Source of the DNA: Glaciozyma antarctica PI12 | Taxonomy: Eukaryota; Basidiomycota; Microbotryomycetes; Kriegeriales; Camptobasidiaceae | NCBI GenBank assembly: GCA_002917775.1 | Contig: KZ627155.1 | Coordinates: 468,675-532,674, forward strand | DNA length: 64,000 bases | Reading direction: 5' to 3' | In this document: positions 7,646 to 60,960 of the stretch, piece by piece | Layout: every line of letters begins with the position of its first letter | Numbering within the stretch: position 1 is the first letter of the stretch | Position numbers and translations under genes: made by a program | The notes under the pieces: generated by a model | What the model was told of the DNA's origin: nothing | What the model saw: the letters and a program-made list of their open reading frames with translations, nothing else | The model's database searches: none

Positions 7646-10600
7646 ATGAACTTCGACCCTTACCTCGTCTCCCGTGGAATCGTGGACTACGGTCAGGCTT
7701 CTCCCCAGTACCCTCCGACCAGCGCCTTCGACTCGTCCTTCTCCTCCCTCTCCTCCGCCGGCGACGACTTTAGCTTCGACCACCCCGTCAGTAGCTGGGC
7801 GAATGGCGCAGGCGATTACCAGCAGAACCTCGGAGGAGATGGAGGAGGATTCGGCATGGAGCAGCCTCAGCAGCGCCGGTTCGACGACCGAGGGAACGCA
7901 GACCAGCAGACGCAACCGCAACAGTCGACCTTCAACCCTTTGGACCACGCTCGCCTCTCCCCCTCCGCCTTCAACCCTTCCCTCTTCACCCCGTCGTTCG
8001 TCCTCCCGCGCTTCAGTCGCGGACCGAGGAGCGAGTTCGAAGAAGGCCCCGCCGTCGTCGAGCCGTCGGCCATCGCCAACCTGAACCTCGGCGGCGGCAG
8101 CGACAAAGGCGACTCGTTCTTCGCCCCCCTCGCCCTCGCCGTTCTACCAGTCATCGGCGCACCAACCCGTGGCTGGCCTCATGGGTCCCCCGCCAGTCCC
8201 GGCGCCTCGCGTCGTCCGCCCCTCGAACGTCACCCGGCTTCCCAACACCCTCCCCAGTCCTACGCCTTCTCCCAGCCCACCCCTCGAGACTTCCCCCGTC
8301 TACGACCTCTATGGCTCCTCCGTCGTCTCCATTAACCCCTCGGCTGCACGCAAGCTCGCCCCGCCCCCTCTCTCGGTCCAGTCCAACCTCCCCACCGGCC
8401 CAGGGGCGCCTTTCGACCCCGAGGCACTCGGCTTGCCCATCCCGCCGAACAAGGAGCAAGGAAACACGAACTGGAAGGGACTGTACTCGAGCAGCGGATT
8501 CGACATGCTCGGCGTCCTCGCTCGCGTTATCGCCCGCCCGAACCCGCAGATCAACATCGGACCCGTCGATTCCGCTTGCAGCTTCCTGGTCGTCGATGCG
8601 AGGAAGTTCGACTTCCCCATCGTTTTCGCGAGCGAGACGTTCACAGCGCTCACGGGCTACACGAACAAGGAGATCGTCGGCAAGAACTGTGCGTTCCAAT
8701 CCCTTTCGCAGTGGCGTTTGACTAACGAGCGTTCGTGGGCAGGTCGCTTCCTGCAGTCTCCCGACGGAGTGGTCGTTCCAGGCGAGAAGCGCAAGTACAC
8801 GGACAGCAACGCCGCACACCATCTGAAGCGCCACATCGTTGCGGGGAAGGAGTCGCAGACCTCGATGATCAACTACTTCAAAGGTGCGCTTTTCGCTCTC
8901 ACACCGTCCTCGAGAATGACAGGTGACGATTTCGCAGGCGGCCGACCCTTCATAAACCTCATCACCGTGTTCGTCCTCCTTCCCCCGGTCTCCCGCAAGC
9001 TTGACTGACCCTTCGTCTCCAGCGTCCCCATCACCTGGGACTCGGACGAAATTGCCTACTACGTCGGCTTCCAAGTTGACCTCGTCGACCAGCCCTCGGC
9101 AATCCTCGAAAAGATGAAGAACGGCACCTACTGCGTCAACTACTCGCTCGTCACCGCCTCGATCGTTCAGAACCCCACCGTCAACTCGGAGGACATGTGG
9201 AAGCCCGTCGCGGCGCCCGCTGAGACGACGATGGCGATTCAGCCGGCGGAACCGATGATGGTCGACGTCGACGTGTCGATGACCGCGGAGCATCTCGACG
9301 TTTTGAGCGAGCTCGGAGATAATGGGAAAGGCCAGCTCACGAATGAGCCGAGTCGGAAGCAGCTCAATCGCATGCTCTTGGACAACGTGCGTTCCTTTCC
9401 GCTCTCGCACGCTTGGCGCCACTAACCCCGCGAACAGTGCGACGACTTCGTCCACGTACTCAAGGTCAAGGGCTCCCTCCTCTACGTCTCGCCCAGCGTT
9501 AAGCGGCTCCTCGAGTACGAGCCGCACGAGCTCATCGGCAAAGGCCTTTCCGCCATCTGCCACCCCTCCGACATTGTCAGCGTCCTTCGCGAGCTCAAGG
9601 ATTCGACCTCGACGACGACGGTCAACCTCGTCTACAGGATTAGGAGGAAGAACTCCGGCTACATGTGGATGGAGGCCTCGGGAAAGCTGCATAGTGCGTT
9701 TCGTTTTTCTCCTTTCGCCACGCGATCGCTAATGAACGTCTGTGCGATTAGTCGAGCAAGGCAAAGGCCGCAAGAGCGTCATTCTCATCGGACGACCGCG
9801 CGAGGTCTACAAGATGTCGTGGCATGACCTCGAGCGCGTTGGCGGCTTCGGAAAGCGCGAGTACTGGTCCAAGTTGAGCGCGCAGGGGATGTTCCTTCAC
9901 GCCACGCCAAGCGTGCAGGACGTCTTGGGCTACTCGGTCGAGGAGATTGGTGAGTTAAGTCCCTGCTGAGGTGGGGATGAGGGCTGATGAGGGCTTCGCA
10001 GTTGGAACTTCGCTTCTTCAGCTGGCGCCCGAATCGGCCGTCGCGGACACGATTCGCACGCTGCAGCAGTCGAACGACACGACGCCTATGAGTCTCAGGC
10101 ACAAGATCGCGACGCGCAATGGCTTCGTCGACGTCGTTACCAGTGTGTTTGCTCCTGGCTTGATTCACGAAGTCAAGCTCACCAACTTCTTCCAGACTTC
10201 TTCTCAAGCCGCGATACCGACAGCAGCTCTACTCACTTCGCCATCCTGTGCGTTCCCTCCCATGCACGAAGCCTCGATTCAGACCACTTACGTCGACTTG
10301 CAGCGCCCAAACGAACCTCTATGAGAGCGAGATGGCCAAGCGACCGATCGCTCCCTTCCCGAGCTTCCCTCGCCGCGGATCCACCTCTTCGCACAGCAGC
10401 GGCCGCGACTCTCCCGTCGCCTTCGCCCTACGCACCGAATCGCCCAGCGGCTCTGACCAGGAGTCGACGGGCTCGGCTGCCTCCTTCTCCGCCATCCCGA
10501 GCACGTTCAAGACCCTCGCCGACCCCTCGACTCTCTCGGACAACCTATTCGACGAGCTCGACACGACGCGCGGGACGAGCTGGCAGTTCGAGCTACATCA

Positions 10601-10985
10601 GCTTCGCCTTACGAACAAGAAGCTGCGCGAGGAGAAGCACATGCTCGCGGCGCTGCAGAGGAAAAAGCGCAAGCACCAGCAGGGACGCAGCGTGCAGCAG
10701 GCTCCGAGTAGCGGCGCGCACACGTGCGCCAACTGCGGTCGAGCTGATTCTCCCGAATGGAGGTCGGGACCGACGGGACCCAAGACGCTCTGCAACGCGT
10801 TCGTCCTTTTCTCCTGCGCTCTCGCTGGGCGTGAGCTGACGTTTCCTGGCTGCAGGTGCGGTCTTCGTTGGAGCAAGGGCAGCTCGGGGCCGGGATCGAG
10901 GTCGAGGTCTAACTCGTCGCGCGAGGGTTCGCAGTCTTCGCACAACTGTCCTCATCTTCAGCCTTTCCGTCCCGCCGCGCAGTAG
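7646..10985 (+). CDS. WC-1: White Collar 1 blue-light receptor with GATA zinc finger
   Basis: This is a flavin-binding transcription factor that senses blue light. The N-terminus is low complexity and Gln/Ser/Pro rich. The LOV domain spans about 8510-9230 and its photoactive cysteine motif is split by an intron: GKNC joined to [11 protein letters not shown] second PAS lies in [20 protein letters not shown]...[15 protein letters not shown] (about 9438-9690), and a third in [21 protein letters not shown] (about 9880-10210). A basic stretch KKRKHQQGR precedes one GATA finger, [20 protein letters not shown]...LCNACGLRWSK, again split by an intron at 10800-10855. The stop is TAG at 10983-10985. 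Before the LOV domain the frame changes once; a six-C run at 8124-8129 with one base too many explains it and gives [17 protein letters not shown]. The finger resembles that of WC-2 more than WC-1. Confidence 0.9.
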
Positions 10986-37645: not shown

Positions 37646-40600
37646 ATGGCATTCTCCCCCTCCCCGTCTCCCTCCGACTCCCTCTCCTCCGCCGGCGCTT
37701 CGACCGAACCCCTCCCCGCGTCCGACGACCAGCACCTCGATGCGCGCCCGCCTTCGGGAAAGGAGATGGCAGGAGGGGAGGAGAGTGATTCTAGTTTGAC
37801 GGAGCAGAGTAGCTCTGAGGGAGAGGAGGGGGGACGGAAGAGGAGGAAGGAGAGGGGGGAGGAGACGCCTAGGGGAGTTAAGGAGGAGGATAGTGCGGGA
37901 GATTCACAGGAGGAAGAGGAGGAGGAGGAGGAGACACCGGATGGGAAGAGGGGGAAGAAGCAGCTTAGGAGGGATCCGCTGCCGCGGAATGGGAACGGGC
38001 GGAAAGGGAGAGAAGAGGAGGAAGATGAGGACGACGACGACGAGGAAGTCCTACCGAAGCCTTCGACGCGCTACCCGATGGCACCGGAACGCTTTCCCTC
38101 CCCATCGCCCTCTCTCTCGGACCTGGAAGACGACGTCGAAGAAGCGCAAGTTGAAAGCGCGTCGCGTGGGCGTGGACGCGGGAGGGGACGCGGGCTGGGT
38201 GCTCGAGGGCGTATTAGGAGAGGCGCATTGCCGAGGCGTACGCCGGGGCAGCAGCGAAGAGCGCGGTTAGCGCGCTTCAAGTCGAGCAATGCGAGTGAGG
38301 AATTGAGTGAGGAGGAGGGGGAGGAGAAAAAGGAGGAGGAGGAGATTAGGGCTGGAGCGAGTGGGTCGACGAGTGGGAGGGCTTCGAGGTCCCGATCGTC
38401 CTCTTCCGTGCGTCCCTCTTTCCCGTCCCACGAGGATCGAGCTAAGCCCTTCTTCATCGCAGTATGGTTCGCACGCCGACGCGCACGCCGATGCAGAAGC
38501 CCAAGCCACCGCCGACGCCGAAGCCTCCGGCTCCCACTCCCCCAGCTCCTCTTCCCGCCCTCTTACCAAGAAACGTCCTCGATCCTCCTCTCTCACCCTC
38601 TCCACGCACGAAGCTCTCGAGGGACTCGTCGACCTCGCTGCGCCTGAAGCGGGCTTGATCGAGCTCTCTACGGAGCCCAAGACGCTCGCGGATGAGTTGG
38701 AGAAGATCAAGGGTGGGGAGGAGAGGGAGGTGGCGATGGAGGTAGAGGAGGAGAGGGAGGAGAGGGAGGAGAGGGAGGAGGAGAAGAAGGAGGAGGAGGC
38801 GAGGGAGAGGGAGAGGAAGAGGAAGAAGGCGGGGGAAGAGGGGGAAGGGGAAGGAGAAGGCTATCGAGGTTGAAGATGAGGAAGAGGGGGAGACGCCGGC
38901 GGGGAGTGAGCATGAGGCTGAGGTTGAGGAAGGTGAGTTCGTGCTGTGCGGGAATTGGGTGAGGAGGGAGCTGATGCGTGGCTGGGGTAGATACGTCCGA
39001 CGACGCGTTCGTGCGCAAGAGGGCCGACGCGATGGAGGCGCTTACGAAGATTGAGATCGAGTTCGCACGGCTGAGGGACAAGCTCTACCTCGAGCGTATG
39101 GCCGAAGTCGACAAGGAGCGGATAGGCGTCGAGAAGGGTGAGTTCTCCTCCTTTTCCGCACGTAAACGCGAGCTGACGGAGAAGGCAGGAACGCATCCTG
39201 AGCTGCTGCATCTTACGCAGCTGATCGAGCTTCGGAGGACGACCAAGATTGAGTTGGCGAGGAAGTGGCTCGAGGGCCTCGAGGGAGATTACGAGCGGCG
39301 AAGAATATCGGAGGAGCATACGGCGTGGAATTGGTGGACTGTGAGTCGTCGCTTTCTGCGTGGGCGGAGGATGCGAGCTGATGGGGTCGAGCAGAATGGT
39401 CGAGCGGATTTGAGGACGACGATGCTGGACGAGGCGAATTCGAAGCGGAGGAAGCTTGATCGCGAGAAGCGGTTCATCGAGCGACCGAAAGAGGGTACGT
39501 CCTTCCGCTCGTCGCTGCGGGGTTTCGAGGCTGACGCTCGACGCTTGCATAGGCGGCCTCACTCCCCTTTTGGCACCTCGGCCTCTACCTCAAGTCCCAT
39601 TGCAGCATCGCCGGCGCGTCGGCTACGAGGTGGAGATGATGCAGGAGAACGAGTTTGCGTGGTCGTTGCGGCATCAGGACCTTCGTGCGGACGCTTCCGT
39701 TAGCGGGCTGGACGACGATACGGCGTGGACCGATCTCGAGCGCATGGGGGTGAGTTCCTCAATGTGGTCGTAGAAGAACGTGAACTGACGAATGCGTCCA
39801 CAGCTTCGCGAAGCGGTTCGCCATCCCAATGTGTACCCCTTCGATCCCGCGTACGGCCACACCGCACCAGGGATGGGACCCCCTCGCCTTTGGTCCCGAC
39901 ATTCGCGCCGCCAACCCCCTCGCAGCTCCGTTCGGCTACAATGGCTCAGGCTACGAAGCGACCGGCCTCGCCCTCCAACAGCAGCAGCAGCAACACCAGC
40001 AGCAGCAGCAGCAGCACCACTTTAGCCAATCCCTCCCCTCCCTTCCCCCTCTCCCTCCGCCTCGCGTCGACTACTCCTCGCTCGAACCCTCTCGACCACT
40101 CTCGAACCCCCGCGCCCTCAACTACCCGCCAAAGGAGCCCAGCGGTGGACATAGTCGATCGCACAGCGGCGCGACGGCCATACGAGGCTTCCCCTCAAAC
40201 CACTTCGCCACTTCGTATGCGGACCTCGAGGCCGAGCGGATTCACGCTCAGTCGGCGTGGCAGAAGCATTCTGCGCCGACGCAGTACCCCTTCGACGACG
40301 CGCGGCGCGCTCCTCCCCCCGCCGAATCGCTCGACCTCGTCGCCGAACACCACCCGCGGAGATCAGTCGACGAAAGTCACCTCGCCGAGAACGGCAAGTC
40401 GCGCCTGACGCTCGATTCGCACATGGCGACGACGAGGTCGCCCAAGGCGGCGACGGTCGCGCACAAGGTCGAGCTCGGGCGCAAGAGTCCTTCGTTCATG
40501 TCGATCCCGGCGTTCGTCCCTCACCACTCGCAACACGCTCAATCCGTCCTCCACCCTCCTGTCCTCCCTCACACGACTCCCTCCGTCGTAGCGCCCACGC

Positions 40601-46463: not shown

Positions 46464-48568
46464 TCACCTCGATCGTGCCGCCGCAAGCAAATCCATCGCC
46501 TTCTCCTTCTCCTCCTCCACCAACCGCTCCTCCTCCGCGATCCTCGCCAGCGTCCGCTCCCGCTCGCTCCTCACCGTCGCCGCCAACTTCTGCACCAGCG
46601 CAGCGACGTTCTGCCGCTCCTTCGCCGAAGTCGGAACGACCCACACCTTGTCCTCCTCGCTCCTAATCCCCTCCTCAACCTCGTTCGCCTCCATCTCCCG
46701 CACGTACTTCTCCAACTCCGCAAGCTTCCTCTGCCCCTCCTCCGCACTAGACCTCAGCGACGGATCCTCCTCCAGCCCCACCTCCTCCTCCCCAGGCGCA
46801 GGCCCAAACAAATCCGCCTTGTTCGCAATAACCCCTCGTACCCTCCCCTCCAACTCCCCCTGCAATCCTTTCATCCTCGCGTACTCCCTCAACTCTTTCC
46901 GCACGCTATCGAGCGCTCCGACGGGGTCCGCAGCGCTCAAATCGACGACGTACACGAGTGCAGCGCACCGCTCGATATGCCGCAAGAAAGCGTGGCCGAG
47001 CCCGACGTTGAGAGAGGAGAGAGGGACGAGTCCAGGGTTATCGGTGATGGTGAATCGCATGATTTCGGTGCGAGGGGTGTGAGTGGCGTCGAGGAGGCGA
47101 CGACGGTCTTCGCGTGAAGTGGGTTGGGAGGTAGCGGAGAAGGTTTCGGGAGTGGTGAGGGTGTCGGAGATGGAGGTGCCAGTGCGGGGACCGGAAAAGG
47201 TCGAGTCAGAGTAGAGGACGCAGGTGCCGTGGTGTGGGTTGAGAGTTGTGAAGGGATAGGCGGCGACGCGAGGTGTCGAGGAGGTGAGGGCGCGAAGGAT
47301 AGTGCTGCGTGCATAATTTATCAGTGAAGTCCTTGCGAGGAGCGAGGGACGGGGCGACGCACCTCTTGCCAGCGTTGGGCATGCCCACCAAACCAACCTC
47401 TCCGCCAGCCTTGACCTCCAGCTCCAGTCGCATCATCTCTCCGTCTCCACCCCTCGTAGCGTATTTCGGACTTCGATCCGAAGCAGACTGGAACGATGGG
47501 TTTCCAAGCCCAGGAGGTCCACCCGAAAGGAGGAGGATGGGATCCGACGCCGGGGTGGGGTTCGTGAGGTCGAGGTAGAGCGGAATGTCCTCTTCGTCCG
47601 CTACGCGCGCTCGGCGCCGTCGGGTCTTCTTCCCCGAGTTGGCTGCTTGTCGAGAGAGGAGCTTCGAGAGGAGTTGGTGCTCGGAGAAGAGGAAGGAGGG
47701 ATGGGAGGCGAGGTCGGTGAGAGGGTAGGTGACGAAGAGGGTCTTCCTGATCCGCTCCAGCGCTGCCTGCTTGTGCTCCTCGACAGGAAACGGGTCGTAC
47801 TCCTCGAAGACGTCGTAGTCCTCTCCCTCCTTGATCATGACCAGGATCTTCTTCTTCCACGCGTCCCACCGCTTCTCCCGCCGCTCCGCCTCCGCCAGCC
47901 GCACTTTACTCGCGTCCCAAGCCCACTCGAGCGCCTCCCTCTCCTCCCGTTCCTTCTCCGCCTCGCCTTCGATCTCCCACCGCACCTCCCGCACGACAGT
48001 CCCAACAGGCACTCGGATCACCATATCCTCGCCGCGCTTCCCTCCTAGCCACTTTCCGATCCCAGGAAGTCCTGATCCACCTCGAACTGTCCGCGGAAGG
48101 TGCGAGAGGGATGTGACGGAGGTGGAAGCGAGGAGGTAGACGGAGCCGCCTGCTCCTCCGGGACCGCCAGACGGAGGTCCTTTGGCCTGCAATGCACAAT
48201 CAGCCTTGTCCTGGAAGCTGTCCCACACGCACACACCTTGAACTTCTCGCGGTGGAAAGCAACGCCGCCAGATCCACCTTTGCCCGAGTGAACGTTCAAA
48301 GAGAGGGTATCGACAAAGTTGGATCCTTCCTGCAGGTACAGCACGGGTCAGCGGGGGTCCTTGGTAGTGGTTCCAGCTAGCTTGCCTGTCTCCGCTTCCA
48401 GTCGCTCTTGCGCACTTGCTTGAGGAGCACGCTTTGATGCTCAGCGACAGCTTGGGAGGTCGAGGCGGTTGGAGGGCTGGGCAAAGGAGCTGCAGCTGCT
48501 GTGGACGAGTACCGCACTCTACTAAAACGGCAGGTGCACTCTAGGCTGCTGAAGGAGAGTCGCAGCAT
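46464..48568 (-). CDS. MTG2: Obg-family mitochondrial GTPase Mtg2
   Basis: This is a ribosome-assembly GTPase of mitochondria. The N-terminus MLRLSFSSLECTCRFSRVRY is presequence-like. The Obg fold follows with glycine-rich SLNVHSGKGGSGGVAFHREK and PSGGPGGAGGSVYLLA. The G domain shows G1 GLVGMPNAGKS (split by an intron near 47305-47365), a G2 region with AAYPFTTLNPHHG, G3 as ITDNPGLV and G4 NKAD. A charged insert of about 100 residues (RRWEAWKKK-like, near 47700-47900) separates the two halves. The C-terminal end is helical and ends at 46464. It converges with Sym1 (about 50 bp apart) and diverges from BTB paralogue C (60 bp apart). Confidence 0.88.
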
Positions 48569-52683: not shown

Positions 52684-54845
52684 ATGGACGACCAAGTTAT
52701 TGGAGTACTCGGTAAGGCAGGGTCAGACTAGCAGGAGGGGGGACTGAGAGCAGCTCCCCTCCCAGCTCACCCGCTTCCTCTCTGTACCTCGAGCTGACCC
52801 TCCTCTCTCCTCAACAGGCGGCGGACAGCTTGGACGCATGCTCCTTCAGGCGGCATCCCCTCTCTCCATCCCCATCGTCGTCCTCGACCCCGAAATCACC
52901 GACCCCGCAAATCAGGTCTCCTCGCCTAATCAGCTCGCCATCTCCGCCTCGTCCAACGCCCTCTCCCACCTCGACGGCCCCTTCACCTCGGAAGCCCACA
53001 TCCGCCAGCTCGCCCAACAGGTCGACATTCTCACGATCGAGATCGAACACGTCGACGTCGCCGCGCTCGAGACGGTCGCCAACGAATTCGCGACGACGGG
53101 AGGCCGCTCAGGAAAGGGCGTTAAGGTCTTCCCCGCGCCCTCAGTCATTCGCATCATCCAGGACAAGTACGCCCAGAAGGCCTACCTCGTCGCGCGCGGA
53201 ATCCCCGTCGCCCCCTTCCTCCCCATCACCGCCAGCGCCACCTCGACTTTTGGAGACGATGCGCGCCTCGTCCTCAAGGACTCTATCCTCGACGCAGGAA
53301 GCAAGTTCGGCTACCCTCTTATGCTCAAGTCGAGGCACCTCGCGTACGACGGCAAGGGCAACTTTGTCCTCAGGTCGCCAGAGGGCCTTCAGGACGCTCT
53401 CGAGGCTCTCATCCCTACGGCGTCTCTCGCGACCGGCAAGCCCATCGCCGACCGCCTGTACGCCGAAAAGTTTGCGCCATTCGTCAAGGAGGTCGCTGTG
53501 ATGGTCGTGCGGGGAGCCAAGGGGGAGACGAGGACGTACCCCGCCGTCGAGACGATCCACCGCGAGTCGGTCTGCCACATCGTCTATGCGCCTCTGCGGC
53601 CCCCAAGTGGACCTGCTGCTGGAGTTGGAAGGGAGCAGAAGGGATTCGGGATTATTGCTGGAAAGGACGTGAACGAGCGAGCGAGGGAGGACGCCGAGAA
53701 GGCGATTGACGCGCTTGGAGAGGGCGCGGTTGGAGTCTTTGGAGTCGAGATGTTCTTGATGGCAGATGGTGCGTTTCTCCTCTCTCCTCATAAGCTTCCG
53801 CTGACCATTGACATTTCACGCAGGCTCCCTCCTTCTCAACGAGATCGCTCCCCGCCCTCACAACTCGGGCCACTACACCATCGAAGCCTGCAACCTCTCC
53901 CAGTACACCTCCCACCTCTTTGCAATCCTCTCCATCCCCCTCCCTCTCATCACCTTTACCCCCGCATCCGCCGGCATGCTCAACCTCCTCGGCGCAACCT
54001 CCTCGACGGCAGACGACTTCCTCCTTTCGGACGGCGTCGTCCAGAAGGCCATCGCGATGGGCGCCGCAGTCCACCTCTATGGCAAGAGCGGTTGCCGCAA
54101 GGGCCGCAAGATGGGCCACATCACTATCCTCGGCACTTCGGACGAGGAAGTTCGCACCAAGATCGCTGCGTTGGTCGAGGCGCTGCCCCCGATGTACCGC
54201 GACGCTCCTCCCTCCCCTACCCTCCGCTCCCTCCTTCCCCACTCCTCCCGCCTCACTGCCCCGAATGGCCCCTTCTCTTCCCCCAACCCCCTCATCTCCA
54301 TCATCATGGGCTCCGACTCGGACCTCCCCGTCATGCTCCCCGCCACTACGATCCTCTCCTCCTTTGGAATTCCTTACGAGCTCAGCATCGTCTCGGCGCA
54401 CAGGACTCCTGGACGGATGGTCGAGTTTGCGCGGGCGGCGGCGGGTAGGGGAGTGTTGTGCGTGATTGCGGGCGCGGGAGGAGCGGCGCATTTGCCTGGA
54501 ATGGTGGCGAGCGAGACGACGCTGCCGGTGATTGGAGTTCCGGTACGAGGAAGCTCGTTGGACGGCGTCGATTCGCTCTACTCGATCGTGCAGATGCCTG
54601 TGCGTTCCATTCTTCTTTCCTCACGAAACGTGCTGACTCGGTTCTCGCAGCGTGGTATCCCCGTCGCGACGGTCGCGATCAACAACTCTACCAACGCTGC
54701 GCTCCTCGCCGTGCGAATCCTCGCATCTCAACTCCCTCGCCTCCGCAAGGAGCTCGAGCAGTACTCGACGAACCTCGAGGACGAAGTTATGGCCAAGGTC
54801 GCGCGATTGGAGGACGAGGGATGGGCGGCGTACGTACGTCGTTAA
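52684..54845 (+). CDS. ADE2: Phosphoribosylaminoimidazole carboxylase (Ade2, PurK-PurE fusion)
   Basis: This purine-biosynthesis enzyme converts AIR to CAIR. A tiny first exon MDDQVIGVLG joins across an intron (52713-52818) to GGQLGRMLLQAASPL, the PurK N-terminal nucleotide fold. The ATP-grasp part shows IQDKYAQKAYLVARGIPVAP, YPLMLKSRHLAYDGKGNFVL, YAEKFAPFVKEVAVMVVRG and, across an intron at 53769-53824, MFLMADGSLLLNEIAPRPHN then SGHYTIEAC. The PurE part shows IIMGSDSDLPVM, YELSIVSAHRTPGRM, VIAGAGGAAHLPGMVASETT and PVIGVPVRG. A last intron lies at 54600-54650 and the TAA stop follows YVRR at 54843-54845. All active-site blocks are present and no frame break is seen. Fungal ADE2 genes have this fused form. 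Confidence 0.97.
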
Positions 54846-54893
54846 GAAGTAGGGCTATTCAAGGTAGATTCTGCAATTGGGGCATCAAGCTAG

Positions 54894-57800
54894 TCAAGCT
54901 ACCTCCGAGAGATCCTCCCACGTCTCGTCCTGAGCCCACCTAGGCAGCTTCCTCCCCTTCGGCAACGAAGCAGGTCCCGTTCGACGAACGCGCGGTTTCC
55001 TAGCCACTGGCGTCGACTGAGCCTCCGTGTCGACACGCCGCTTCTTCGCTTTCGAAACGGGGATGCTCTCCGAATCGTCCGTCTCGTTCGCTTCCTCCTC
55101 GGGCCCCTCCTCCTGCTCCTCCTGCTTGGGCTCCTCCTCCGCGTCAGGCTCATGAACTACGACCTTCCTCTTCTTCCCCGACGCCAACGACGACAACGCC
55201 GTCTTGATATCCCACCAATTCCCCGTCGTCTTCCTCTCCCTCGACGGCCTCGTCGCCGAAGCAGGCGCTGGAGAACCCGCAGCGGAGGACGAGCGGCGGA
55301 TCGCAGCTGAGGCCGAACGGCGGGAGACAAACGAAGCTGACGCGGTGGTGGGAGTGGCAGAGGTGGTGGTGGTCGCGCGGGAGGGAGCGGGGCGGCGAGT
55401 TGGGCGCTTGCGAGAGGTGCGAGGTGGGGGAGAGGGAGGGGCGAAAGCTTTGTCGTCTTTCGACTCCTCGGCGGCGACTTCGATTTCTTCGTCCTCGTAC
55501 TCAACTGCGATCTCCTCCTCCTCGTCGACTGCAGCCTCCTCGACCTCGACTTCGACCTCCGCTTCCGGCTCAGACTCGGGAGAAGCCTTCGGCTTCCCCT
55601 TCGAGCGAGCCGCCGCGCGCTTCGCCGGGCGAACGGGTGAAGACCTGGGAGCGACGACCGACTCCTCGTCCTCGTCCGACAGAGGCCGAAGAATCGGCGG
55701 TCGTTCCTTTTGCGAAGTCGATGAGCCGAGAGAGGATGCGAGGGGTGGTGGGCTGGAGGATTTGGTGGTTGAAGGGACGAAGGACGAGGTGGATGCGACG
55801 GGTTGGATTGCGAGGTCGTCTTCGTCGTCGGGAATCGTCCTTCGGGATCGCTTGTTCGCTCGAGAGGGGAGTCGAAGGGCCCGCTGCGGGGTAACATCCA
55901 TTCCCATCTCGTCGTCCGAATCGTTTGAGAGGGTCCGCGGTGCCTTGGAGGTCGAGGGAGAGGTGGGCCCAGCGTCGACTAGTTCGGACGTCCCGCGCTT
56001 CGCAGGCGATCGAGGGGCGGACGCTCTGCGTGGGGAGGAAGGTACGCGGATCCTGGAAAGGGTGTTAGCTTCTAATGGACCTGGCGGCAAGCGAGAAACG
56101 TACTCGACGCAGAACGAGCGATTCCGCTTGTGAGACGCCTTGGACTCCGAACGATCATGGCGGCTCCTTGAAGACGATGGAGTGAAGAAACCCTCGGCGA
56201 CAGCCTGGAAGACGTTGTCATCCTCAACCTTGAGCTGCTGATCGTCGACGACCGCGGCCTCCTCGATAGCGACATTGGGCACCTCCCCTCCCTCCTCTCC
56301 CACCGCCGGCTTCTCCGCAACCTCCTCCGCGACCCACTCCACAACCTGCTCAACGACCTCCTCCTCGACCTGCTCCTCGACAGTCTCCTCGACGACATTA
56401 CCGGCGAAGGACTCCTTGATCGTATCGTCGACGAGCCTTTCGTCCTGCGCAGGCTCGCCGAGGTCGGCAACTGGCGTCGCGACGACTTCGACATACGGCA
56501 CCTCCTCCTCGACCTCCTCCTCCGCGAGCTTTGAAAGCGCGATCCGTTCCTCCTCGACCTCGCTCGCCTCCTCGAGGACTGGAACGGGGTCCTGTTCGTC
56601 GTTCGCGATATGCTCGTCGGGCTGGATGGGGTCGGCGACTTCGATGAGATCGACGACTTCGAGGGGGACAGCTTCGACGGGCGCGAGGTGTTCGAGAGGG
56701 ATGTCGGGCTGCTCGACGGCTTCGGGCTCCATCGTCTCGCGTTCAACAGCGTCGTGGTCGTCCGGGGCAGTCTTTACCTCCTGAAGCAGCTTTTGCGGCC
56801 CCGCGACTTCGCCCTGCTCGCCCGCAAATTCGAACGAGTCGCCCGCGTCCGAAGGCCGTTCCTCGACGATCTGCTCCTCGACCTCCGGCGAGTTCGCGAC
56901 CACTTCTTCCTCCTCCGCGACGCTCTCCTCGGCGAGTCCGTTCTTCTCCTTCACCTCCTCCTCTAGCACCTCAACTCCCGCCACCGGCTCCTCACTCATC
57001 CCCCTCCCCACGGTCCCCGCGCCAATCTCCTCATCCTCCATCACCGGCCTCTCCTCCCTCTGCACACTCCCCAACCCCTCCATATCCTCCCTCACAAACT
57101 CGACCACCTCCTTCATATACCCCTCCACAGACCCAGGGTCCGAATCCTGGTACAGCTCTCCAAAACGTAGGCGCGGCGGTTCGGCGGGACTCGAGGCGTG
57201 AGAGGGCGTTGGAGTGGCGTTGCGGAGTTGGGGGAGTGGGAGGTCGGATTCGGAGGAGGGGATGTAGGAGGTTGAGAGGGATGGCGGGGTTGAGAGGAGT
57301 TGGAGGGGGGTTGTGGGTCGTGGAGGGGGAGAGGAGGTGCGGAGGAGGGAGGAGGTGGGGAAAGCGAATGGCTCGAAAGGGACTGGGGAAGGTCGTTAGT
57401 GTGGAGTGGGAGAAGGAAAAGAGTAGGCGTACGAGCTGGAGAGAAGTCCTGCTCCGCGGCGTGCTCGACGGGTAGCTCGACTTCAGCTGGAGGACTCGGC
57501 GCTGCTGCTTCGGCTTCGAGGTTCGCTTCGAGTTGAGGACCGACTAATTCCTCCTGGGCTGGAGATCCAAACGCCTTTTCCTCGACGACGACTTCTGCAT
57601 TCGTCGCATCAGCTACTCTCCAAAACGAGCTGCGAAAGCGAGACCGACGTACCCGTGTCGACAACTCGCTCAACCTCTTCCAGCACCTCGCTCTCCTCCC
57701 TCACTGCCCCGTCCTGCACGAACTCATGCTCCACAGCCTCTCCCCTCCTCGCACCCACCTCACCCTCCTCGTCTCCCCCACTCATCTCCTCCTTTCCAAC

Positions 57801-59095
57801 CAGCATCCTCGCTCCCTCGCCTACTTCCTCCTCGTCAAGCTCCACCTCCTCCCGTGCCTCGTCCTCCTTTGCTGACGGGATGAGCTCCCGTAACTCGTCG
57901 TCTTTCGCTTGAATGCGCGGAAGGTCCTCCAGAGCTGGGTCGGAGGAGAGAGCTGGAGATGGCGGAGCTGGGCTGGTAGGGAGAGTGGGAGGTGGAGAGG
58001 CTGAGAAAAGTCGCTGGGGTGAGGAGGCGGAGGAGAGCTGGGGAGGGGGAGAGGGGGAAGATCGGAAGAGGGGCTGGGCGAGGGTGGTCGATAGTGGCGA
58101 GCTGGGTGCAGGAGGGGATGGAGCGGAATGATCGAGAGAGGCCGACGCGACGTCCGACTCCGGTGGAGCTGCGAAGCTCTGAGCAACTCCTACAGGCTCC
58201 TCCCCTTCGCCAGAGACCTCAGTCGCGTCCATCGCGTCGGCAAGGGGTCGCTCCGCCTTGTCCTCCCTCCGCTCCTCCTCCTCCTCAACGTACCCCGCAT
58301 CCCGGTCAACGTGTGTCCCCTCCTCCTGCAGGTCCGGACTCGCCTCCCTCGGCGTCGTAAGCAGTTTGTGTAGCTCCTTCCTCGTGCGCGCCGCTCCCGG
58401 TTTACGAACGTAGTTCGTCCCCATCGGAAAGAGAGAAGGCGGGAGAAGCTCGTCGTCCGAGTCGAGCTGGAGAGGTTCTTTCTCCTGGAGCGCTGGGAGG
58501 GCTGGTGAGGAAGGGAGGGAGTGGCCAGGGAGGACGAGCGGGGAGGGAGGGGTGGCGAGGGATCGGAGGGAGGCAGCCATCGCGAGGAGGAAGGTGTACG
58601 CTGGCGGGATACCCTGCTTGAAGTCTCGTATGAGCTGTTGCGGGACTCCTGCGGTGCGTACGAGCTGTTAGCGAGGAGCGCGAGGGGGGACGGGCAGAGG
58701 GGGGACGGGCAAGGGGAGGACGCACCTGCGCTTGCAGCGCGCTCGCTGTCACAAGGCCCCACTAGCTCCACCTGCCCTCCATCCGTTGAGAGGAAGAGGG
58801 TGTTCGTGAGGCGCTCCGCCATCTGCTGCCCTACGAGTCGCCCTCCATCGACGGTCCTACCCCAAGCGACCACAGCGTGCGCGTGCTCGCACTCTTCAAA
58901 GGAGACGAACCAGCTCTTGAGCTGAGTGGTGGCTGCCAGCTTGAATTTTGGCGCGTCTCGCCTGGACTTGAAGGCGAACTCGAGAGAGTGGAGAAAGGAA
59001 GAGTGTTGCGGCCCGTTCCGAGCTCGGGCCAGCAGCGAGCTCTCTCCTTCCGCCCACCAGTGACTCTCCTCGATTTCCTTTCTATTGAATCTCAA
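54894..59095 (-). CDS. SANTA-domain protein resembling centromere factor KNL2/Mis18BP1
   Basis: The first exon carries a SANTA-like domain: AATTQLKSWFVSFEECEHAH, VVAWGRTVDGGRLVGQQMAE, RLTNTLFLSTDGGQVELVGP, and after an intron (58680-58725) GVPQQLIRDFKQGIPPAYTF. The order (tryptophan start, T-x-x-G-x-x-x-x-L-x-G, then a G-[VF]-P...F..G[IF]P end) is that of SANTA domains in KNL2/Mis18BP1. A very long acidic, Ser/Pro-rich middle follows, with NLS-like KRSRR and KKRRV runs. Near the C-terminus ATRPSRERKTTGNWWDIKTA recalls the CENPC motif of KNL2 and CENP-C (R-x-S-x-R...P..[WY]W). It ends GRKLPRWAQDETWEDLSEVA at 54894. Introns near 58680-58725, 57610-57650, 57385-57440 and 56050-56100. No ATG fits the first exon, so the start is unknown. 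A centromere role is inference. Confidence 0.6.
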
Positions 59096-59208
59096 CTCCT
59101 ATCTACTGAATCTCAACGCCGATCTCCTGACTCTACGCTAACCCTCCTCGAGGCGGTGGTTCTCCCGACTCTCCCAAACAAGGCGCGTTGCTGCGAAGGC
59201 CTCACGAT

Positions 59209-60960
59209 TCAGTCTTCGCACCGAGAGAGAGAAGATAAATGCACGCACAGTACACTGCCAGTGTACACTCCATACGCTGTACGAGGGGCGACGAAGAGGA
59301 AGAGCGAGATAACCAGCACGCTGAGCCCCATCGAGATCCCTCTGAACGCCTCAATCTCGAGCGTCTTCCACAGCAGCGAGCTCGAAGTTGCCATCGTTCC
59401 TATTGGAAAGGTCAAGCCCCTGCGCAGATATTAGCTCGTCAATCTAGCACCGGCAGCGGAAAACGCACCACCAACCGAGGTTAAACGGGAACCCCTTCCG
59501 CACGCCTCTGCGAATCGCGAGCGTCGCCGCAATCGTCAACCAAAACAGTCCCAGCCCCCACATGAACAACGCCAACACAATCGACACGCCATAAATAGCC
59601 AGCGTGACCACCTCGTGCTCCGCCCTCGAGAGGTTTCCGCCCCCGCCTATCCCTATCCCCGTTTCGGCTTGGAGTTTGCGCAGGACGAGAGCGAGTTGGA
59701 GGAAGACGAAGGCGGATTGACCGCAGGGACCTACGGGGAGGAAGAGGGAGATAGTCATGGCGGACGTGGGCACTGCGAGAGCCGGGGTTAGTGAACGCGT
59801 GAGGAATGGGGTGCGAAAGGACTCGCTTTTGTGGAGGACGAGGCGCTGGAAGTACAAGCACATGACCCAGAGGACTGGTGGTAGGCTCAACCCGAGCATA
59901 ATGTAGCTGAGGACTAGAGTCAGGTGGGCGAACCTCGCGGCAGGCGGAGAGACGCACCAAACGACAACGGTCAGTCGTGCCTGAACTGAGGGAAGAACCT
60001 CTGCGACGATAGCGCCTGCCGCAGCGCCGATAACAGGACTGACGATGGGCTGAAGCCAGACTGCTGAAATGGCTCCATCGACGTGCTTCTGCTTCGTGAA
60101 CCTGCGACACCTCATCAGCGAGCGAACCTTGCGAAAAGGGAGAAAGCTCACATCAAGAAGGGAAGGATGATGCCCATACCGATTGATAGAACGGCTACGA
60201 TCCACCAGAGCCCCCAAGCGAGGTAGACGAACCTGCTTTGGAATCAGCGCCGTCTCCACGAGAGCTCGAAAGTGCGCACCTTGGTCCAGGGTACGCCGGG
60301 ACGAGCAGGAACACAACCATCTCCGACAGCGTCGCTAGTCCCATTGGAAACGTTCCCGTGTAGAGAGACTGGACAGGGTGGCAGATCATGAGGGACCACA
60401 CTTGAGGCCAAATCGCGTAGCGAGCGATCGACCTGCGAGCAAGTCAGTACTTGCGCGCTTGGAGTGGGGAGAAGACGCACGTGAGGAAGAAGAGAATGAA
60501 GAGGAGCGCGTTCATCGTGAATATGACGGCTGAGATCGCGCGTAGGCCTGAGAACTGGTACGGGAGGTTGTGGATGAGGATCGAGACGATGCCTGCGAAG
60601 GAACACGTTAGGAACGGGTCCTTCTTGAGCTACTGAGGCGCGACAAACCGAATCCCATCGTCACCTGCGAGCCCGAGCACACATCAGCAGCAGCACACTC
60701 TCACTCTCTGAAGCCACTCACGGAGAACCACCTGCGAAGAAAAAAAGATGTGTCAGTCACGCTCCTCCCCTCACAGAGCGGACGACTCACGCCGGAGTAA
60801 AGTGAAGCACCCTATACCTCACCGCATTCACCACCCCAGGCGGCCACCGCTTCCCTCTCGCGGCCGACGCGGTCGAGACGACAGGGAGCGGAGGGAACCT
60901 GGCAGGGCGTCGAGCCGGGACTCCATCGCTCGCTGCCTCCTCACATTCTCTCCTGCTCAT
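59209..60960 (-). CDS. SSU1: Ssu1-type sulfite efflux / SLAC1-family anion channel
   Basis: This plasma-membrane transporter of the TDT family exports sulfite in yeast. About ten hydrophobic segments are visible. The start ATG at 60960 gives MSRRECEEAASDGVPARRPA, then AVRYRVLHFTPA joined to WFSVTMGFG, the usual family opening. Further blocks are IVSILIHNLPYQFSGLRAIS, FPMGLATLSEMVVFLLVPAY, DGAISAVWLQPIVSPVIGAA, LSYIMLGLSLPPVLWVMCLY, PTSAMTISLFLPVGPCGQSA and FPFNLGWW followed by GLTFPIGTMATSSSLLWKT, ending at TGA 59209-59211. The F-P-x-G and G-P-x-G-Q-S motifs are characteristic. About ten short introns divide it. It lies head to tail with the KNL2-like gene 110 bp downstream. Confidence 0.88.

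Follow-up and report, generated by a model that had tools for sequence, protein, structure and literature searches.

The 64,000-nucleotide stretch of Glaciozyma antarctica PI12 DNA analysed here (contig KZ627155.1, positions 468,675 to 532,674; hereafter the window) carries on its minus strand a gene for a protein with an N-terminal SANTA domain, which is known from animal and plant proteins that take part in marking centromeres. We inspected the region 54000-60000 together with its open reading frames, and a spliced model was built from these. The gene is real: it runs in five exons from 59095 to 54894 and encodes a product of about 1321 residues with one stop, at the end. Its reading frame, the SANTA domain, the layout of charge along the chain and the residue spacing of a C-terminal peptide were all observed directly. 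Membership of the KNL2/M18BP1 family is well supported and the most likely identity, because the SANTA domain was searched for and found. We further lean towards the view that this fungal KNL2/M18BP1 has the layout of plant alpha-KNL2, with SANTA, an acidic body and a basic C-terminal region holding a divergent CENP-C-type peptide, and with no SANT/Myb domain.

The SANTA domain (Pfam PF09133) covers residues 58-140, which convert to positions 58599..58924 of the minus strand, and it is split by intron 1. When the whole protein was compared with PF09133, positions 2-88 of the 92 in the profile were matched with 31.6 bits (E 2.2e-07), and a trimmed piece of 103 residues reached 37.9 bits (E 2.5e-09), the curated cutoff being 21. 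Pieces from exon 1 alone remained under this cutoff, at 16.8 bits (79 residues) and 15.2 bits (123 residues), and it is the joining of the exons across intron 1 that completes the match. The sequence from the ATG at 58822 onward scored 29.8 bits by itself, above the cutoff. These scores show that the domain is real, that it spans intron 1 and that it matches better when the stretch upstream of ATG 58822 is included. The N-terminal SANTA-type domain proposed in an earlier sequence-only reading of this DNA is thus borne out, as is its description of a KNL2-like SANTA protein, which hinged on a match above the threshold. Up to E 10, Pfam listed no other family for the 1321 residues. A sequence search of the PDB with 161 residues including the SANTA region gave no match up to E 10. 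Structure prediction for the 79 exon-1 residues, which are a partial domain modelled from a single sequence, returned five short strands and one helix at a mean predicted local distance difference test score (pLDDT) of 47.7 and a predicted template modelling score (pTM) of 0.31, values too low for a fold to be read from the model.

With regard to the gene model, exon 1 is the open part of the frame at 58726..59095, and its coding start lies either inside this stretch or in an upstream exon joined to it. Intron 1 (58649..58725, 77 nucleotides) reads GTGCGT...CGCAG and has a branch-like CTAAC. Exon 2 (57653..58648) contains the end of SANTA followed by a part rich in proline, serine and acidic residues, exon 3 occupies 57433..57594, exon 4 (56104..57382) encodes the acidic body, and exon 5 (54894..56052) encodes a mixed to basic C-terminal part with a WW motif and the stop codon. 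Introns 2, 3 and 4 measure 58, 50 and 51 nucleotides, respectively, and all four introns are of the GT-AG type; the branch-like sequence is GCTGATG in intron 2 and CTAAC in the other three. The chosen frame has no internal stop in 1321 codons, whereas the alternative frames hold from one to nine stops per exon. The GC content at third codon positions (GC3) is higher in the chosen frame than in the others for exon 1 (0.71 vs 0.63 and 0.49) and exon 5 (0.71 vs 0.63 and 0.60), hardly higher for exon 4 (0.77 vs 0.75), and lower than in another frame for exon 2 (0.69 vs 0.74) and exon 3 (0.55 vs 0.85). The weakest part of the model is exon 3, where the frame with the higher GC3 contains one stop. 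A wrong model, in which SANTA and the C-terminal part would come from two neighbouring genes, would draw on these GC3 values in exons 2, 3 and 4 and on a first exon lacking the support of an ATG. Set against the stop-free frame of 1321 codons and the four GT-AG introns with their branch-like sequences, we regard such a merger as highly improbable.

The 5' end of the gene deserves separate attention. The frame is closed by a TAG two codons upstream of 59095, and the minus strand shows no ATG between 59273 and 58848, a span of more than 400 bases that straddles the beginning of the gene. Exon 1 has a single in-frame ATG (58820..58822, minus strand), which corresponds to residue 92; a start at this codon would halve the SANTA domain. 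A codon-usage score for which 514 codons from the adjacent ADE2 gene served as training set ranked the SANTA frame first of three in most windows downward of about 59005, but not upstream of that point; in the windows at 58885 and 58765 a frame containing a stop scored higher. Since codon usage favours the SANTA frame only from about 59005 downward, the model probably opens with 25 to 30 residues that are non-coding. Three scripted scans revealed no upstream first exon with convincing splice sites. A filtered scan left three candidates, none with a branch-like sequence, and an unfiltered scan listed 281 ATG-GT-AG combinations, none of which combined donor, acceptor and branch-like sequence. 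For a slightly shorter stretch, 16 of 262 combinations had the donor and acceptor form, with starts at 59394, 59331 or 59273, and all 16 begin inside the neighbouring SLAC1 gene, within its last reading frame (59209-59415). The missing ATG and the missing upstream exon count against the model at this end; a hidden first exon, a non-ATG start and a sequence error are the candidate explanations. Accordingly, of the span 54894-59095 given in the sequence-only reading, the open frame from 59095 to the stop at 54894 holds, and the full span has no start codon to support it.

Downstream of SANTA the protein changes in composition. Over residues 601-900, aspartate and glutamate account for 31-33 and lysine and arginine for 4-7 of every 100 residues, in agreement with the long acidic body reported earlier. 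This body is probably flexible; its hydrophobic residues, at 26-31 per 100, are not below those of the first 200 residues. From residue 901 on, basic residues climb to 13-20 per 100, and the WW motif (residues 1203-1219) is located in a stretch of 115 residues with 21 K/R against 11 D/E, so that the basic C-terminal stretch with a WW pair was also correctly described. When the last 128 residues were run against Pfam, five families appeared up to E 10, none at its cutoff, and a PDB search with a 39-residue C-terminal peptide gave only two matches, both to ReP1-NCXSQ and at chance level (E 1.5 and 1.6). As a separate observation, the tail KGRKLPRWAQDETWEDLSEVA (54894..54959, minus strand, sequence of the spliced model), which forms the last 21 residues, contains two of the five tryptophans present in residues 151-1321; it may act as a short binding motif in its own right.

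The candidate CENPC-like motif, TRPSRERKTTGNWWDIK, extends over residues 1203-1219 (55203..55253, minus strand) and contains R1204, R1207, W1215 and W1216 in the spacing pattern R..R.{7}[WYF]W. The core of the CENP-C motif is RxxxxPxxYW and that of the CENP-C central region RxSxxPSxWW, and changes of the arginine or the tryptophans in the central region abolish nucleosome binding (Kato et al., as reported in PMC4830207). The distances from R1207 to W1215-W1216 equal those in both of these motifs, and the second arginine, R1204, is found at -3 as in the CENP-C motif. The peptide also shares its register with two segments of Centromere protein C in chain 7xhn_C, namely NVRRTKRTRLKPLEYW (from 736 on) and the central region VTKSRRISRRPSDWW (517-531). 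The pattern was picked after the sequence had been seen, and its frequencies should be read in that light: among 20000 shuffles each, 14 contained it for residues 151-1321 and 20 for the local 218-residue stretch, while 189 and 229, respectively, contained the looser R.{7}[WYF]W. Throughout the six-frame open stretches of the window (80678 residues), the looser pattern was found 12 times and the stricter one three times, two of these within the gene model, at residues 1204-1216 and 2-14.

Several results weigh against reading the peptide as a CENPC motif. The motif proline (+5) is replaced by threonine, and the stricter spacing recurs at residues 2-14, in the probably non-coding 5' edge. We also scored the protein with a 16-column motif profile, which was made from five seeds (three vertebrate CENP-C motifs, one central region and one plant consensus) and therefore leans to vertebrates. 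TRPSRERKTTGNWWDIK was the top hit in the protein with 4.0 bits, compared with 37 to 45 bits for the seeds, a score matched by 518 of 3000 shuffles and thus not significant; among 71033 six-frame windows it ranked 26, with 25 others equal or better. This profile result is negative. Moreover, the viral and prokaryote collections that were searched (viral_contigs and genome_contigs) yielded no homologue that could show conservation of the motif. Scans of these contigs with 109 residues from the SANTA region, as spliced, and with 121 residues from the C-terminus confirmed none of the 5, 122, 37 and 158 pattern matches obtained, and such collections say nothing on fungal conservation. Because the profile is non-significant and the pattern was chosen with the sequence in view, the likeness of TRPSRERKTTGNWWDIK to CENPC is only suggestive; what survives of the 'CENPC-like motif' is the correct spacing of the arginines and the aromatic-Trp pair, the proline being absent and the profile score lying within background.

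These points lend some weight to a KNL2-family protein without a working CENPC motif, similar to plant beta-KNL2 or mammalian M18BP1, which would reach the centromere only through SANTA and protein partners, and in which the WW peptide would be a chance likeness or serve another role. Such proteins exist: plant beta and delta KNL2 have no CENPC-k, and the motif is missing in eutherian mammals (PMC9210943). Nevertheless, the WW peptide occupies the end of the protein where such a motif is expected, its surroundings are basic and four anchoring residues are in register, a spacing rarely reproduced by the shuffled residues 151-1321 described above. We judge the absence of a working motif to be rather unlikely, with a sizeable chance left to it.

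No SANT/Myb domain was detected in the 1321 residues (Pfam up to E 10). This domain is a feature of animal KNL2/M18BP1 and is not required in plants; metazoan members also bind Mis18 proteins. Plant alpha-KNL2 is likewise not known to carry a SANT/Myb domain, and its acidic body is shorter than that of the window protein. A SANTA-domain chromatin protein of another function, in transcription or heterochromatin, with the domain reused outside the centromere, would be compatible with SANTA being the only part identified with statistical support and with the long acidic and basic low-complexity regions, which are frequent in general chromatin proteins. However, hardly any proteins other than those of the KNL2/M18BP1 type are known to have SANTA, the C-terminal peptide points to the same type, and such a reuse appears clearly improbable. 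Two further identities were tried and rejected: CENP-C/Mif2, as Pfam showed no cupin match in either the full-length protein or its last 128 residues, and bridgin, as no FHA match was seen in the protein.

The family identification and the alpha-KNL2-like layout were compared with known systems. In the plant clades studied, SANTA is present in KNL2, whereas CENPC-k occurs only in alpha and gamma KNL2; it is C-terminal, reads KRSRSGRV/LLVSPLEFW and binds CENH3 nucleosomes directly (PMC9210943). To hold centromeres, CENPC-k requires neighbouring positively charged DNA-binding regions (PMC11879092). The window protein resembles plant alpha-KNL2 in its N-terminal SANTA and in the arginine/aromatic-Trp motif that its basic C-terminal part contains (PMC9210943, PMC11879092), and differs in that its motif has no SPLEF part and ends in WW instead of FW. 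The M18BP1/KNL2 proteins of non-mammalian vertebrates (frog, chicken and fish) also combine SANTA with a CENP-C-type motif, which in their case binds CENP-A nucleosomes (PMC9210943, PMC4830207); in contrast, the window protein shows no SANT/Myb, and its motif has diverged and lacks the proline. The CENP-C central region shares an arginine eight and nine residues ahead of the WW pair (PMC4830207), and the window protein differs from CENP-C by having neither the motif proline nor a cupin domain. Chytrid KNL2 is a fungal KNL2 with CENPC-k, mentioned in one sentence of PMC9210943; it belongs to another fungal branch. Bridgin (Bgi1) is a long basidiomycete kinetochore protein whose middle is disordered and whose C-terminus is basic (PMC9252888). 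The window protein is likewise long, with a basic C-terminal part and a body that is probably flexible, whereas the FHA domain of bridgin has no counterpart found in it. The word SANTA is absent from the main text of the bridgin paper.

If the alpha-KNL2-like layout is correct, the C-terminal peptide would most likely lie on the CENP-A nucleosome, where R1207 would reach the H2A/H2B acidic patch and W1215-W1216 would touch the CENP-A tail, contacts presumed from CENP-C structures. The basic flanks of the peptide would help by holding DNA, and the SANTA domain would contact CENP-C or other inner-kinetochore parts. In this way the protein would bring the CENP-A loading machinery to existing centromeres and allow their renewal in each cell cycle. 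Binding, localisation and loading are all proposed here by analogy with KNL2 of frog, chicken and plants, and binding of the CENP-A nucleosome by the candidate peptide is only plausible. A targeting role of SANTA, moreover, is not general, which tells against this scheme: in frog M18BP1, SANTA binds CENP-C in metaphase and CENH3 nucleosomes are bound without it, and targeting of Arabidopsis KNL2 seems likewise to be independent of SANTA (PMC9210943).

A fungal KNL2 of this kind would stand in a sparsely described field. The sequence-only reading had called the factor poorly described in fungi, which fits the literature, with the reservation that KNL2 with CENPC-k has already been mentioned for chytrid fungi (PMC9210943). 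No basidiomycete KNL2 was recognised in the open-access literature by title or start of abstract among the matches listed, a weak negative, as most subscription papers fall outside. In basidiomycetes, CENP-C is the sole part of the constitutive centromere-associated network (CCAN) conserved across the phylum, and the kinetochore also includes bridgin (PMC7794384, PMC9252888). CENP-C is the only known linker in 23 of the 31 orders surveyed, and a few orders of Pucciniomycotina and Ustilaginomycotina retain further CCAN parts (PMC7794384). That survey took in CENP-A, the CCAN and the KMN network, and the words Mis18, SANTA and KNL2 do not occur in the text of PMC7794384; nor do Mis18, KNL2 and M18BP1 in PMC5579357. 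Fission yeast is without an M18BP1 orthologue, and its Mis18 is recruited by other routes (PMC7618776). We tentatively suggest, as a possibility we would not put higher, that some basidiomycetes keep an animal/plant-type KNL2 that itself reads CENP-A nucleosomes via a WW peptide resembling, in divergent form, that of the CENP-C central region. Their centromeres would then be renewed by a direct KNL2 route that is absent from fission yeast, and this in a phylum in which most orders are also without the greater part of the inner kinetochore. A retained KNL2, if true, would suggest how CENP-A loading can work in fungi with reduced kinetochores, and the animal/plant pathway could then be studied in a tractable organism that grows as a yeast. 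The interest is moderate, because fungal KNL2 is little described and the protein would serve as a testbed for CENP-A loading in such fungi.

As for the surroundings of the gene, its tail-to-tail neighbour is a fused PurK/AIRC gene of the ADE2 type (Pfam ATP-grasp, PurK_C and AIRC), the frame of which ends at 54845, 48 bases before the stop codon of the SANTA gene, and its head-to-tail neighbour is a SLAC1-type transporter with a last reading frame ending at 59209. Among 18 pieces of the window run against Pfam, four were without any family and none gave a kinetochore-related family. The base composition of 60.2% GC, the short introns and the genes present are consistent with the basidiomycete yeast named in the sequence-only reading. 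Elsewhere in the window, an Obg-type GTPase is encoded at 46467-48234 on the minus strand by two overlapping reading frames (GTP1_OBG and MMR_HSR1), with an intron presumably at the join. On the plus strand, an Sds3-like protein is found at 38978-39700 (PF08598, 43.5 bits), from a family that belongs to a histone deacetylase complex, and an acidic low-complexity reading frame at 37646-38647 precedes it. A White-collar-1-like light-sensor gene, apparently a single gene, occupies 8169-10985 on the plus strand; it has a LOV-like stretch (PAS_9, 23.5 bits, below the cutoff of 27), PAS_3 at 9426-9824 (54.1 bits) and, somewhere in 10248-10982, a zinc finger of the GATA type (38 bits). Many basidiomycete WC-1 proteins have no zinc finger, so that a copy with one would be noteworthy.

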